Positions 15,899-25,344 of a stretch of DNA of 32,807 bases are shown here, in pieces. Source of the stretch: a virus; the IMG/VR virus record IMGVR_UViG_3300050821_011183, positions 1 through 32,807 of that record; one strand, given 5' to 3'. How positions within the stretch are numbered: position 1 is the stretch's first letter; each line of letters begins with the position of its first letter. A program made the position numbers and the translations under genes. The notes under the pieces are model-generated. The model was given only the letters and a program-made list of their open reading frames with translations. It did not search any database and had not been told where the DNA came from.

Positions 15899-16046
15899 GC
15901 ACCCGGGCCCGGGGGGGCGTCAGGATCCGCCTGGCGTCCTGGGCGCCTGCCCGGCGCGCCACGTTGACGCCTGGGGCGCGAACGCCCGGCGCCGCCACGG
16001 GTGGCTCGGCCCGGCCCACGGCGCGTTCTGGCGGCCTCCTGGAGCC

Positions 16047-16071
16047 CGTGGCGGTATGGTGGGCGGTATGG
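16047..16071. repeat. Left 25-bp direct repeat of attP (putative integrase arm site)
   Basis: Starts CGTGGCGGTATGGTGGGCGG; the copy at 16261-16285 differs at two positions. Each contains two tandem GGCGGTAT units about 12 bp apart, as expected for paired arm-binding sites. Confidence 0.75.
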
Positions 16072-16124
16072 ACGGCCGCCAGCGTCCCTGGCGGCCTCGA
16101 CTCACGCGATTTTGTTAAGGTTTT

Positions 16125-16170
16125 TGGAGCCGGCGACCCGATTTGAACGGGTGGCCTGCTGATTACGAAT
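16125..16170 (-). other. attP core: 3' half of tRNA-Thr(CGU)
   Basis: Read on the minus strand from 16170, the sequence starts ATTCGTAATCAGC and equals tRNA positions 31 to 76. It has U33, anticodon CGU at 34-36, a 5-base variable loop, a perfect T-arm (ACCCG, TTCAAAT, CGGGT), a 7-base acceptor strand CGCCGGC, discriminator T and encoded CCA. The 5' half of a tRNA is absent: bases beyond 16170 do not pair. Integration would therefore restore the 3' end of a host tRNA-Thr gene, with crossover in the anticodon loop or stem. Confidence 0.92.
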
Positions 16171-16260
16171 TTGCGGCAGGTGGATGCTGTGGACGCGAGC
16201 GGACGAAATCCTTAACGATTCCGTCCGTCCTGTCCGCCCGCGTCGCCAGAATGCGTTGCC

Positions 16261-16285
16261 CGTGGCGGTATCGTTGGCGGTATGG
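16261..16285. repeat. Right 25-bp direct repeat of attP (putative integrase arm site)
   Basis: Starts CGTGGCGGTATCGTTGGCGG; direct copy of 16047-16071 in the same orientation, lying between the core and the integrase 3' end. A partial third unit (GGTGGTATGCC) follows at once. Confidence 0.75.
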
Positions 16286-16302
16286 GTGGTATGCCCGGGC
16301 CA

Positions 16303-17541
16303 TCACTGACCCGGCCGGCCGGGCCGCAGCAGGTCGCCCATGATCCCGGCCGCCCTGACCGCCGTTTGCTTCACCAGGTGGTTGTAGAGATCGGCCGTGA
16401 CCCTGAGCTCAGAATGGCCCAGGAGCGCGCTGACGTCGGCGAGCTGCACGCCTGACGCGATCAGCAACGTCGCGGCGCTGTGCCGCAGCTCGTGGAACCG
16501 CCGCCGCGGGGTGATCGGCACCGCTTCGAGGAGCGCGTGCAGGACGCGCGTCACGTTGCGCGGTGAGAGCGGCCCGCCGACCTTCCGTTTGCCGCCGAAG
16601 GGCCGACCCGGTCGTCGGTTCGGGCGGGCTAGTTGCCCATACGTGGTGAAAACTAGTCCACCGCCATCGACCCACGCGGCGCCTGCCTTCAGGCGCTCTT
16701 CCCGTTGCCGCGTCCGGTGCGTCCGCAGCGCCTCGAGGCAATTGGGCGGCAACACCAGCGTGCGCCGACTCTTCGCCGTCTTGACGTCGACGATCACGAA
16801 GATCCCGCGTTGGCCTTTGAGCTTGACCCACTGCAACTGCTGGCGAATTTCGACCTCACCGGTCGTCAGGTTCACCGCATCCCAGGGCAGGCCGAGCGCT
16901 TCGCCGAGGCGCAGCCCGCACGCGAGCGCCACCGTGAAGAGCGCGCCCAACCGATGCTGGCCGGCGACCTCGAGGAAGGCCTTGCCCTCCTCGATCGTCA
17001 GCGGGTGAATCGGCCGGCGCTTCGGTTGCGGCACGTCGACGAGCATCGCGGCGTTGTCCGTCACCAGGCGCATCTTGCGCGCCTTGGTCAGCGCCGACCG
17101 TAGGACCGCATGCGCGACCGCGACATGGCGCCGCGCGCCGTGCTCGGCCTCCTGATCGTTCAGCCACTTCTGGATCCGCAGCGACGTGAGCTGATCGAGC
17201 CGCAACGATCCGAACGCCGGGATCAGGAGCGTATCGATGCAGGTGCGGTAGCTGCGTTGACTCGTGAGGCGCAGCGGTTTCTTCGCGCTCGGTCGCGACC
17301 GCGTGGTCAGCCAGTTGTCGAGAAACGCCGCCACCGTGGGCGTCGTGGTGGTGACCAGGTCGCCGGCGGCCAGGCGGCCGCGCAGCACGTTGGCTTTCTT
17401 GACCACCTCCGCTTCGCTGGCCGCGTACACCGATTTGCGTTTGCGTTTGCCATCCGGCCCGCGCCCGAGATCGAGGCAGGCTTCCCAGAGGCCATTGGCG
17501 CGTTGTCGAATGAGGCCTTCGCCCCGGCCACGGCGTTTCAT
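16303..17541 (-). CDS. int: Tyrosine-family site-specific integrase
   Basis: 412 aa. The N-terminal 60 residues (RGEGLIRQRANGLWEACLDL, KRKSVYAASEAEVVKKA) form an AP2-like arm-type DNA-binding domain. A core-binding SAM-like domain follows at about 68-165 (FLDNWLTT, TLLIPAFGSLRLDQLTSLRI). The catalytic domain has Arg211 (CGLRLGEALGL), a lysine near 254-257, His350-x-x-Arg353 (HELRHSA), His376 (LLGHSEL) and nucleophile Tyr386 (DLYNH), so all key residues are present. AGGAGG lies just before the ATG, inside the upstream gene, which it overlaps by 4 bp. It recombines attP with a host tRNA-Thr gene. Confidence 0.96.
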   Translation of the reverse strand: MKRRGRGEGLIRQRANGLWEACLDLGRGPDGKRKRKSVYAASEAEVVKKANVLRGRLAAGDLVTTTTPTVAAFLDNWLTTRSRPSAKKPLRLTSQRSYRTCIDTLLIPAFGSLRLDQLTSLRIQKWLNDQEAEHGARRHVAVAHAVLRSALTKARKMRLVTDNAAMLVDVPQPKRRPIHPLTIEEGKAFLEVAGQHRLGALFTVALACGLRLGEALGLPWDAVNLTTGEVEIRQQLQWVKLKGQRGIFVIVDVKTAKSRRTLVLPPNCLEALRTHRTRQREERLKAGAAWVDGGGLVFTTYGQLARPNRRPGRPFGGKRKVGGPLSPRNVTRVLHALLEAVPITPRRRFHELRHSAATLLIASGVQLADVSALLGHSELRVTADLYNHLVKQTAVRAAGIMGDLLRPGRPGQ

Positions 17542-17867
17542 GCCTGACCTCCTGTCATGGCGGTGCGCAGCGCCGACACCTCGGTGACGAGATGGCCCAC
17601 CGTCGCTTCGAGCCGACGGACCACTTCGCGGAGCTCGCGAATCGCCACGTTCCGGGATGCGGTGCCGCGGTCGTCGGCGAGCAATTCACCGCTGGCCAGC
17701 TGCTCGCGCAAGGCGTGGGCTTTCCTGACGACGTCGGCCTGCGTCCACGCGTACACCGACCTGGTCATGCGCTTGCCGTCGAGATCGCGGCCCAGATCGA
17801 GCCGGGCTTCCCATCGGCCATCGGATCGTTGCCGAATGAGGCCTTCGCCTTTGCCCCGTCGTTTCAT
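17538..17867 (-). CDS. Stand-alone integrase arm-binding domain with coiled coil
   Basis: 109 aa. The first 62 residues (starting MKRRGKGEGLIRQR) match the integrase N-terminus at about 41 of 62 positions by eye, including GKR, SVYA and the LA-G-L end of the domain. The remainder is unrelated to integrase: VAIRELREVVRRLEATVGHL then VTEVSALRTAM has hydrophobic residues in heptads, a likely dimer or trimer coiled coil. No core-binding or catalytic domain is present. It should bind the same arm sites without recombining. It overlaps int (ATGA) and the upstream gene by 4 bp each and carries the ribosome-binding site of int. Confidence 0.88.
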   Translation of the reverse strand: MKRRGKGEGLIRQRSDGRWEARLDLGRDLDGKRMTRSVYAWTQADVVRKAHALREQLASGELLADDRGTASRNVAIRELREVVRRLEATVGHLVTEVSALRTAMTGGQA

Positions 17868-18190
17868 GACGCCACCTCACTGCGGCCGCGTGGAAACCCG
17901 AACACGCGCAGCGTGACGCTATCGGGTCGATCCCAGGTCAGGCCGCCGCGCTCGGGAATCGTCAGCCCGCGACCGCGGGCGATCGCTTCGAGGTCCTGCG
18001 CCACGGCGATCGTGCTGACGGTGATCGCCAGGCCGCGATCGGCGCGTCGGACCTCGGCGCCCGGAATGGTCGCGGTGACGAAGGCCTCAAACTCGGCGAT
18101 CGTCGGCTTCCGTCGGCTTCCGTCGGCCTCCGTGGTGCGCGAATGGCGCAGGCCGAGGTGTTCAAAGTGGTTGAAAGTGCCGTCGTTCAC
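17864..18190 (-). CDS. Hypothetical protein in the integrase operon
   Basis: 108 aa, GTG start overlapping the brnA stop (GTGA). KPTIAEFEAFVTATIPGAEV, AITVSTIAVAQDLEAIARGRG looks like a folded alpha/beta domain; no family recognised. Codons 21-30 are encoded by three tandem 10-bp units at 18101-18130. The stop overlaps the next start by 4 bp, so it is translated with its neighbours. Its place between antitoxin and integrase genes suggests a regulatory or recombination accessory role, but nothing shows it. Confidence 0.72.
   Translation of the reverse strand: MNDGTFNHFEHLGLRHSRTTEADGSRRKPTIAEFEAFVTATIPGAEVRRADRGLAITVSTIAVAQDLEAIARGRGLTIPERGGLTWDRPDSVTLRVFGFPRGRSEVAS
18101..18130. repeat. Three tandem 10-bp repeats inside a coding region
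   Basis: Units CGTCGGCTTC, CGTCGGCTTC and CGTCGGCCTC follow without gaps (one mismatch in 30). The unit length is not a multiple of three, so gain or loss of one unit would shift the reading frame of the 108-aa gene near its start. Confidence 0.85.
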
Positions 18191-18510
18191 TTGCTCACCC
18201 CCGATCGGCGGCGGCGGGCCTTCGACGTGGGCTTCCGACGCGCCTGGCGGCGCCGGGCCAAGGCCGCGATGTCATCGCTCAAGCGGGTCTGCCACCCGCG
18301 GCCGCTGGCGCGATACGCGGTCACGGCGTCTCGTTCGAGGCGGATCGTGACCATGACTTTCGTCGCGGCCTTCTGGGCGCCGCGGTACCGGCGCTCGGAC
18401 TCCAGCATCGCGGCGCGCAGGTCGCCGCGACCGTCGGCGTCGTTCGCCACGACCACGGCGTGTTTGAATTCCTCGTCGGTGTAGCTGTCAGGAGCGGGTC
18501 GGGTAGACAC
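18187..18510 (-). CDS. brnA: BrnA-like antitoxin
   Basis: 107 aa with a GTG start. The region TKVMVTIRLERDAVTAYRAS followed by GRGWQTRLSDDIAALARRR is the ribbon-helix-helix domain of the DUF4415/BrnA family, including the typical G-x-G-[WY]-Q-T-R turn. The N-terminal helical part (TDEEFKHAVVVANDADGRG) would contact the toxin. The C-terminus is very basic. BrnA proteins dimerise, neutralise BrnT and repress their own promoter. The gene overlaps brnT by 23 bp; toxin first, antitoxin second is the normal brnTA order. Confidence 0.88.
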   Translation of the reverse strand: MSTRPAPDSYTDEEFKHAVVVANDADGRGDLRAAMLESERRYRGAQKAATKVMVTIRLERDAVTAYRASGRGWQTRLSDDIAALARRRQARRKPTSKARRRRSGVSK

Positions 18511-18757
18511 GGGCGTAATCCTTTTTCTCGCGGCGATTGGCTCGCCGCAGGCTAATGGGACGAAAGTCCCCGTCGCGCCGCGTCACGACTGCGGAATGCA
18601 GCCGATCGTCGATATACCCGAGGATGACCCAGCGATCCTCACCATCCCGCGGCGAGTAGATCGCGACGGGCTGCGTGAGGTCGTCGAACCGGGCCAGGCC
18701 GATGTGATGCTCGGCGCGGTTGCGGCGGTCTTTGTTCGGATCGAAAGGCGCGACCAT
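18488..18757 (-). CDS. brnT: BrnT-like ribonuclease toxin
   Basis: 89 aa. FDPNKDRRNRAEHHIGLARF matches the start of the DUF497/BrnT family (PF04365; consensus F-x-D-x-x-K-x-x-x-N-x-x-K-H), and RWVILGYIDDRLHSAVVTRR then FRPISLRRANRREKKDY match its end. BrnT is a RelE-fold endoribonuclease that stops growth when its antitoxin is lost. First gene of the int operon, directly behind a consensus promoter whose predicted transcript starts only a few bases before this ATG. Confidence 0.9.
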   Translation of the reverse strand: MVAPFDPNKDRRNRAEHHIGLARFDDLTQPVAIYSPRDGEDRWVILGYIDDRLHSAVVTRRDGDFRPISLRRANRREKKDYARVYPTRS

Positions 18758-18766
18758 GTGACGCCT

Positions 18767-18808
18767 CTGATTGTAATGACATGCGCCCGGACTCTCAAGC
18801 TGATTGTA
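18767..18808. promoter_or_regulatory. Direct repeats over the brnT promoter, possible BrnA operator
   Basis: The 9-mer CTGATTGTA occurs at 18767-18775, over the -10 box, and again at 18800-18808, upstream of the -35 box, 33 bp apart (about three helical turns). Direct repeats around a promoter suit a ribbon-helix-helix repressor. Binding is inferred. Confidence 0.5.
18770..18798 (-). promoter_or_regulatory. Strong leftward promoter of the brnT-brnA-...-int operon
   Basis: On the minus strand: TTGAGA (18798-18793), 17-bp spacer, TACAAT (18775-18770), then the brnT ATG at 18757. The start of transcription would lie near 18763, leaving a 5' leader of only about six bases. This is a near-consensus sigma-70 promoter in an otherwise GC-rich region. 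Confidence 0.75.
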
Positions 18809-18809
18809 T

Positions 18810-19388
18810 TTACGTCAGAAGTGCGCCACAAATCGCGCAGGTCTGACGCGCGGTGGGCCAGTCCGCGCACTCGTGGCCGGCGCCGGCGCTGAACCCGAGA
18901 CGCGCCTCGGCGACGAGGTCATGTGGCAGGTGGCAGGCGCCGCAGTACCGATTCGCGATGTCGTCGCGGTGATAGCTGACCGCGCCGCAGAGGAGGCAGC
19001 GGATCGCCGGGGGCCGGCCGGGCGCGCCCGCCAGGTGCAGCACATACGTCGGCGTTAGCAGGTCGACCGCGCGCTGCGCGGCCTGGCCGCGCGCCACGAA
19101 GTCCCGCAGCCGCTCGAGCGGCGATCGCACGGAGTCGTCGAGGCGCCATCCATCGGGCGTGCGGCGCAGCGTGAAAGTCCAGTGGTCGTGCCAGGTCTGC
19201 CGAGCCGCGTCCTCAAGATCCCACCGCGCGCCGAGCGTCCACCCATCATGGCGGATGAACACGACGTCGATCAGTGTGCCGGCGACCGGGCGGCCCGCCT
19301 TGAACTCGTCGACCATCACGCGATCGGGCAACCAGGTCCCGCGGTTCAAGCGGTCCAGCAGCTGACGGGCGAAGGCTTCGTCGATCAC
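18810..19388 (-). CDS. Early phage protein with C-terminal zinc ribbon
   Basis: 192 aa. The N-terminal 100 residues (DAARQTWHDHWTFTLRRTPDGWRL) form an unrecognised mixed domain. The C-terminal part has IRCLLCGAVSYHRDDIANRY then CGACH, a Cys4 zinc ribbon I recall from many phage proteins, and a further CAICG near the end. No enzyme motif is visible. It ends 12 bp before the -35 box of the brnT promoter. It overlaps the upstream gene by 4 bp. Confidence 0.8.
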   Translation of the reverse strand: MIDEAFARQLLDRLNRGTWLPDRVMVDEFKAGRPVAGTLIDVVFIRHDGWTLGARWDLEDAARQTWHDHWTFTLRRTPDGWRLDDSVRSPLERLRDFVARGQAAQRAVDLLTPTYVLHLAGAPGRPPAIRCLLCGAVSYHRDDIANRYCGACHLPHDLVAEARLGFSAGAGHECADWPTARQTCAICGALLT

Positions 19389-24103: not shown

Positions 24104-25114
24104 ATGGACACCCACACCACCACTCCGGCCGATCTCGCGGCCGCCATCACCACCGCGTGGGGCGCCCACCTGGCCCGCGGCGCGCGGCAGGCGTCGCCGC
24201 ACCCCTACGTCTACGCGTCGGCCTGGCGGCCGTGCGTCCGCCGCATGGTGCTCGAGATGACGCAGCCCGACGCGCTGCCGGTGTGGCCGCCTGACGTCCT
24301 GGCGCGCTTCCGCCGTGGGGACGACCGGGAACGCGACCTGCTCGCGGACCTCGCGCGCATCGGCCGCGACGCGACGCCGCCCTTCAGCGTCATCGGCCAA
24401 CAGCAACGCTTCGAGCTGCGCGATCACAAGAGCCGCGTCGCGATCACCGGCAAGGTGGACGCGCAGCTGAAGCTCGATCACGACCGCGCCGCGGTGCCGA
24501 TCGAGGTGAAAGCCTGGAGTCCGTTCCTCGTCGATCGCATCGAGCGGTTCGAGGATCTCTTCGACAACCCGTGGACGCGGCCCGGGGCGTACCAGCTGCT
24601 GACGTACCTGTTCGGCGCCGCCGTGCCGTTCGGGTTTCTGCTGCTCGATCGATCGGGCCTGCCGCTCGTGGTGCCCGTCGAACTCCACGAGCACTTCGAC
24701 AAGCTCGAGGACTTCCTCGCCCGGGCCGAGCAGGCGCTCGACCACCAGGCCGCCGGCACGCTGCCGGCCTTTCTCGAGAACGACGCCGCCGAATGTCAGC
24801 GCTGCCCCTTCTACGGATCGACGTGCAACCCGCCGATCGGCGGCGCCGGCGTGCGCGTGCTGACCGATCCCGAACTCGAAGCGTTGCTGACCCGCCGTGA
24901 AGCGCTCGACGCGGCCGCGACCGAGTTCGATCGGATCGACAAAGACATCAAAGGCCGGCTGCGCGGCATCGAATCGGCGGTGGCCGGGCCGTTTCTGATC
25001 GAAGGCCGGTGGGGCAAGCAATCGAAGGTGGACCTGCCCGCGGCGTTGAAAGCGCAGTACACCCGCACCGATCCGAAGGGCCGCTTCACGCTCACGGTGA
25101 CGAGGCTGTCATGA
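24104..25114 (+). CDS. Cas4/AddB-like PD-(D/E)XK exonuclease with Fe-S cluster
   Basis: 336 aa from the ATG at 24104 (a TTG two codons earlier is in frame). The nuclease core is GKVDAQL (D119), then IEVKAWSP (E134, K136) and GAYQLLTYLF as the QhxxY helix. Cys44 (WRPCVRRM) together with Cys231, Cys234 and Cys241 (CQRCPFYGSTC) form the split four-cysteine Fe-S cluster of Cas4/AddB nucleases. With the upstream protein it probably forms a phage recombination pair that resects DNA ends. It overlaps the next gene by 4 bp (ATGA). Confidence 0.88.
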   Translation: MDTHTTTPADLAAAITTAWGAHLARGARQASPHPYVYASAWRPCVRRMVLEMTQPDALPVWPPDVLARFRRGDDRERDLLADLARIGRDATPPFSVIGQQQRFELRDHKSRVAITGKVDAQLKLDHDRAAVPIEVKAWSPFLVDRIERFEDLFDNPWTRPGAYQLLTYLFGAAVPFGFLLLDRSGLPLVVPVELHEHFDKLEDFLARAEQALDHQAAGTLPAFLENDAAECQRCPFYGSTCNPPIGGAGVRVLTDPELEALLTRREALDAAATEFDRIDKDIKGRLRGIESAVAGPFLIEGRWGKQSKVDLPAALKAQYTRTDPKGRFTLTVTRLS

Positions 25115-25344
25115 CCAAACGCGCGGTCGACGTCCCGCCCGTGTCGCTCGAGGATCGCTCGCGCCTGCTGCTCCGGCCGACCGAGGTCGCCGACGCCCTG
25201 GGGTTCTCGCGCTCGAAGACCTACGAGTTGATCGCCTCCGGCGTCATCCCATCGATCCGCGTCGCCAACATGGTCCGCGTGCCCGTCGAGGCGCTGCGCG
25301 CCTGGATCGATCAGCAGCTCGCCGATCAGCGGAGGGCGTCGTGA
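25111..25344 (+). CDS. Excisionase-family HTH protein
   Basis: 77 aa. LLLRPTEVADALGFSRSKTY then ELIASGVIPSIRVANMVRVPVEALRAWIDQQ is a MerR/Xis-like winged helix-turn-helix (HTH_17, PF12728). Proteins of this family act as recombination directionality factors or as transcription regulators. It sits in the rightward operon, not next to int, so excision would be under lytic control. The ATG overlaps the nuclease stop. Confidence 0.85.
   Translation: MTKRAVDVPPVSLEDRSRLLLRPTEVADALGFSRSKTYELIASGVIPSIRVANMVRVPVEALRAWIDQQLADQRRAS

Follow-up and report, generated by a model that had tools for sequence, protein, structure and literature searches.

The integrase of phage lambda depends on the occupancy of arm sites by its N-terminal domain (NTD), and bridges these arm sites and the core sites, the arm sites that are filled deciding the direction of the reaction (PMC4880445). 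For lambda-type integrases, arm-site occupancy thus decides between integration and excision, and an arm domain that occurs naturally as a separately encoded protein would offer a direct means of testing the effect of such occupancy. Lone arm domains encoded directly upstream of int are found in mycobacteriophages, where they form the C-terminal part of the GIY-YIG endonucleases of PHROG 16880 (ThetaBob gp46, Demsculpinboyz and Yoshi gp55). Mycobacteriophage genes of this GIY-YIG-arm type (L007:1999-2508; L030, L032 and L048) overlap or abut int and lie close to a tRNA-like stretch. In this study, a gene in the same position, ORF109, was analyzed in a window consisting of a single 32.8-kb virus record, that of a tailed phage with its terminase, portal, protease, capsid and tail genes at the left. 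ORF109 differs from the PHROG 16880 proteins in that these have an N-terminal nuclease domain and no coiled coil, and belong to an unrelated phage and integrase.

ORF109 (17538-17867, minus strand) starts with ATG and encodes a free-standing arm-binding domain and a coiled coil in a protein of 109 amino acids with a pI of 11. Codons 1-62 (17682-17867, minus strand) are a copy of an integrase arm-binding domain of the Tn916/AP2-like beta-beta-beta-alpha type, as judged from sequence identities, a profile score and a fold match to 1bb8 and 1b69; codons 74-106 (17550-17648, minus strand) encode a predicted coiled coil whose core comprises nine a/d positions, as judged from a shuffle test and an AlphaFold helix. 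The neighboring gene (16303-17541, minus strand) encodes a tyrosine integrase of 412 amino acids with SAM-like core-binding and catalytic domains (PF00589, 4.7e-19; PF14659, 8.2e-7; phrog_1), the N-terminal arm domain of which lies below Pfam detection. The original prediction had put the identity between ORF109 and this integrase at about 41 of the first 62 residues, and this count proved exact. It had also described the core-binding and catalytic domains as missing and replaced by a heptad-patterned tail, which agrees with the reading frame and the Pfam results: the RKHRH-Y residues are absent together with both domains, the protein ends after the arm and the coil, and no Pfam integrase match was obtained, so that ORF109 does not classify as a tyrosine recombinase. 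The predicted 4 bp overlap with int is likewise present, as an ATGA (17538-17541, minus strand) in which the TGA of ORF109 and the ATG of int share 4 bp, and the ribosome-binding site of int, AGGAGGT (17547-17553, minus strand), lies within the last codons of ORF109. The start of the integrase is fixed, since its frame contains no ATG, GTG or TTG upstream of 17541. ORF109 is a real and unusual gene, of which one example was found.

The gene order on the minus strand between 18757 and 16303 is brnT, brnA, a 108-amino-acid gene, ORF109 and int, with a 23 bp overlap between brnT and brnA and 4 bp at every later junction, and these overlapping genes appear to form an operon that begins with a BrnT–BrnA toxin–antitoxin pair and ends with int. 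The apparent first gene encodes the BrnT toxin homologue (18488-18757, minus strand; PF04365, 1.8e-15), followed by the BrnA antitoxin homologue (18187-18510, minus strand; PF14384, 2.9e-12), which shares 4 bp with the next gene. This gene (17864-18190, minus strand; 108 amino acids) has no assigned function, overlaps ORF109 by 4 bp and yielded no relatives by sequence among the viral contigs; single-sequence AlphaFold2 gave a fairly confident alpha/beta core similar to de novo designed alpha/beta proteins, and not a winged helix. The sole sigma-70-like promoter found in 15900-19000 (one found versus 0.2 expected), TTGAGA-17-TACAAT, lies ahead of brnT (18770-18798, minus strand), and no terminator-like sites were found in the same interval. 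Two near-copies of TACAATCAG (18767-18776 and 18800-18809) overlap and flank this promoter. They may be BrnA operators, and the integrase is therefore possibly under toxin–antitoxin autoregulation. Elsewhere in the record, an HTH_17/excisionase-family gene (25009-25344, plus strand) is a more conventional candidate for the Xis of this phage.

The relationship between the two arm copies is visible in the DNA, with 73% identity over 193 nt at an offset of 326 nt. A Pfam-A search reported no arm model for either ORF109 or the integrase, and PF14657 was absent from the whole record; a profile was built from 39 other arm domains, both window copies being left out, and scored ORF109 at 80.9 bits versus 71.0 bits for the integrase's own arm. 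Residues D16, R18, R22 and T42 of the family consensus are kept by ORF109 and are N, L, C and S, respectively, in the integrase, whereas E45 and K36 are kept by the integrase and not by ORF109. The loss of the conserved D16, R18 and R22 from the window integrase (17541-16303, residues 16-22) is unusual among the 39 other arm domains. The two arms form a sister pair in the tree (ultrafast bootstrap 98, SH-aLRT 56), on branches of 0.15 for ORF109 and 0.60 for the integrase, a weak comparison drawn from 65 columns. Third codon positions account for 26 of the 53 differences between the copies, and dN/dS is ∼0.33 (NG86), an average over both lineages from one 64-codon pair. A neutral frame of 109 codons would be stop-free at this divergence with a probability of ∼0.15, counting substitutions only, so that the openness of ORF109 by itself is weak evidence. 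The better arm score together with the dN/dS ratio argues against a decaying integrase fragment; the original prediction had reached this view from the intact frame, the overlaps and the new C-terminus, and the heptad chain described below adds to its support.

AlphaFold2, run as a monomer with 36 arm sequences, predicted a beta-beta-beta-alpha unit at residues 11-59 (strands 11-13, 19-27 and 33-40, helix 43-59) and a single helix of 41 residues at 66-106, with a mean pLDDT of 80 and blocks at residues 81-100 reaching 96-98. The model thus contains the three-stranded sheet and C-terminal helix of an arm domain. The top PDB match in Foldseek was the Tn916 INT-DBD (1bb8, E 0.11), and alignments to this domain gave 2.3-2.5 Å over 51-53 residues with 21-22% identity. 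VIA-align returned 1bb8 (Z 5.2, 2.5 Å over 53 residues) and 1b69 (Z 4.9), modest scores that are level with those of plant AP2 domains and of unrelated entries, and the lambda Int N-domain and the HAI7 arm domain were also among its matches. Owing to these modest Z-scores, the fold assignment uses sequence and fold together; the sequence profile and the predicted fold jointly support a genuine Tn916/AP2-type arm domain in ORF109. In the viral library, the best match was the GIY-YIG protein of mycobacteriophage Yoshi. ORF109 aligns with PHROG 16880 over profile positions 90-150 of 162 only, which is the arm part, and has no GIY-YIG nuclease domain.

The tail has the sequence features of a leucine zipper, with unbroken heptads, beta-branched residues at a and leucine at d. 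The core is formed by I76, V83, V90, V97 and M104 at a and by L79, L86, L93 and L100 at d; beta-branched residues (I, V, V and V, then M) at a alternate with leucine at every d, and nine consecutive a/d positions are filled by I, L, V or M. A continuous chain of nine such positions was found in none of 20,000 shuffles and in none of 947 pieces of 47 amino acids from the six-frame ORFs of the window, which, with the predicted helix, supports a strong predicted coiled coil. The possibility that a deletion within int gave rise to the tail was also considered and is unsupported, as the tail has no detectable similarity to the rest of the integrase (shuffle p of 0.52 for protein and 0.31 for DNA).

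The candidate targets lie in attP. Five copies of the decamer GGYGGTATSS are present in the 32.8-kb record versus 0.4 expected by chance, all of them in attP and on the same strand (16050, 16062, 16264, 16276 and 16285), on either side of a tRNA 3' half (16125-16169, minus strand). By reading of the sequence, this half corresponds to tRNA-Thr with the anticodon CGT and is the probable attP core; ARAGORN found no complete tRNA there. One arm of attP contains two GGCGGTATGG putative arm sites 12 bp apart (16050-16071, plus strand), and the other contains three in the same orientation, at 16264, 16276 and 16285 (16264-16294, plus strand). The decamers make up a direct repeat of 28 bp, 93% identical, at 16044 and 16258; the attP repeat had been anticipated, but at a length of 25 bp. 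From their sequence and location, we infer that the decamers are integrase arm sites. As candidate sites are confined to attP, the target of ORF109 would be the attachment site if integrase-like specificity has been kept, and ORF109 is most likely a putative arm-site binder that acts there, modulating integrase assembly on attP as a predicted dimer. Autoregulation through arm sites at the operon promoter was rejected, as no GGYGGTATSS is present at that promoter.

Relatives of ORF109 were sought by exact-peptide scans of viral_contigs and genome_contigs and by arm-pair alignment in genome_contigs; at the sensitivities applied, viral_contigs, genome_contigs, phages and plasmids yielded none, except for arms that form part of integrases or of nuclease fusions. 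A search of viral_contigs with a degenerate DNA pattern representing two arm motifs, limited to upstream genes of similar size, was negative. Among 182 sequences compared, arms outside full-length integrases were limited to ORF109, the GIY-YIG fusions, integrases that were truncated or located at a contig end, and a weak match in L113 (E 0.003). Apart from ORF109, free arm domains next to an intact integrase were seen in this set only in the mycobacteriophages ThetaBob, Demsculpinboyz and Yoshi. The 23 records of phages of the same terminase family contained no close integrase and three weak matches. The tandem integrases of human-faecal phage contigs (L005:4145-5593 and L006:2857-4401) were rejected as instances of the same layout, being two full-length genes, both of the Tn916 type; in the second integrase, an additional arm-like domain lies at the C-terminus and precedes a helix-like tail. 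Orf12 of Lactococcus phage Q33 (L182:5874-6224, minus strand), a remnant-like 'putative integrase' of 116 amino acids, is found in a genome with no other annotated integrase. Full-text searches of open-access papers found no account of an int neighbor in which a free-standing arm domain is joined to a coiled coil. The original statement that no described system has this arrangement therefore holds, as far as these searches reach, for the coiled-coil version, but not for the slot itself, which is occupied by the nuclease-arm fusions of the three mycobacteriophages.

The explanation that we favor, at somewhat less than an even chance, is that ORF109 is a maintained dimeric arm-site protein that arose when the 5' end of int was duplicated in tandem and became fused to a leucine-zipper-like coiled coil, and that changes the site usage of the integrase. 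ORF109 would be translated just before int and coupled to it through the ATGA, and would bind paired arm sites in attP, and those of attL and attR in the prophage; its occupancy would alter the number of sites that the integrase can use, and with it the threshold or direction of recombination. The likeliest single action would be competition, in which a dimer with avidity for a tandem pair of sites displaces the integrase N-domains, and recombination would be restrained by ORF109 until the integrase is in excess. Counting against this explanation, a parallel coiled-coil dimer is symmetric whereas the sites are direct repeats, and pair binding would therefore need a flexible linker. Since the arm of ORF109 fits the family better than that of the integrase, a division of labor also deserves consideration beside competition: ORF109 would be an architectural partner that holds the high-affinity arm contacts and bridges or bends attP, the arm of the integrase having been weakened or respecified. 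We consider this unlikely, at perhaps half the weight of the favored reading. The integrase arm appears to have drifted more (branch 0.60 versus 0.15; 71.0 versus 80.9 bits) and has lost the highly conserved D16 and R18 as well as R22, and a dimer could bridge both arms of attP; however, the integrase still has 41 of the 62 residues and a clear arm-domain match, and the branch lengths come from only 65 columns.

It is less probable still that ORF109 is a recombination directionality factor (RDF) that switches the integrase to excision, as the original prediction had also envisaged. ORF109 is small and basic, has a predicted DNA-binding fold and overlaps int from upstream, in the slot of an xis gene, and the xis gene of lambda likewise sits upstream of int and overlaps it. 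Lambda Xis favors one set of Int-arm contacts (PMC4880445), which would be compatible with such a role, whereas a winged-helix fold is typical of the known RDFs of tyrosine integrases (PMC11963761). The winged-helix/HTH fold expected of an Xis was not obtained for ORF109, the model of which has an arm-type fold; this and the separate HTH_17/excisionase-type gene at 25009-25344 weaken the option, and co-translation with int leaves no obvious means of expressing the integrase alone. Equally improbable is a non-functional leftover of a partial tandem duplication of int, with a tail that is coiled-coil-like by chance and a frame kept open by chance or for the ribosome-binding site of int. The lack of relatives is in its favor, as is the 15% probability that a frame stays open at this divergence, and the existence of truncated integrases elsewhere (L027, L063, L025 and Q33 Orf12) keeps it alive, but the arm of ORF109 matches the family more closely than that of the integrase, dN/dS is ∼0.33, the nine-position heptad chain is unmatched in shuffles and the tail has no detectable similarity to the rest of the integrase.

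Returning to the favored dimeric arm-site protein, these results suggest that the phage itself produces a protein that would act with the integrase, or compete with it, at the phage's own attachment site. More broadly, and a little more tentatively than for the protein itself, ORF109 may represent a class of integrase modulators drawn from the arm domain of the integrase, in which a separate, co-translated dimer controls recombination through the attP arm sites. In the tree, the arm of the ThetaBob nuclease groups with the integrase arms of ThetaBob and Yoshi (99/91), and the capture of a neighboring integrase's arm therefore appears to be recurrent, having occurred at least twice; taken with ORF109, the mycobacteriophage nuclease fusions suggest repeated copying of the arm into an adjacent gene, perhaps as a way of targeting the attachment site. 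The predicted fold and a glycine/arginine motif are common to ORF109, the Tn916 INT-DBD (1bb8/1b69) and other arms of the IntTn916 subgroup (PMC8138268); however, the INT-DBD is the first domain of a full recombinase, whereas ORF109 has no recombinase part. With lambda Xis and other RDFs, ORF109 shares the form of a small basic protein encoded just upstream of int and overlapping it, but its predicted fold differs from theirs. CapR and the plant AP2 factors, which are DNA-binding domains separated from mobile-element nucleases, resemble ORF109 in that a mobile-element DNA-binding domain is reused without the catalytic domain (PMC10448857); these proteins act on gene expression, whereas the candidate sites of ORF109 are at attP and not at the operon promoter.
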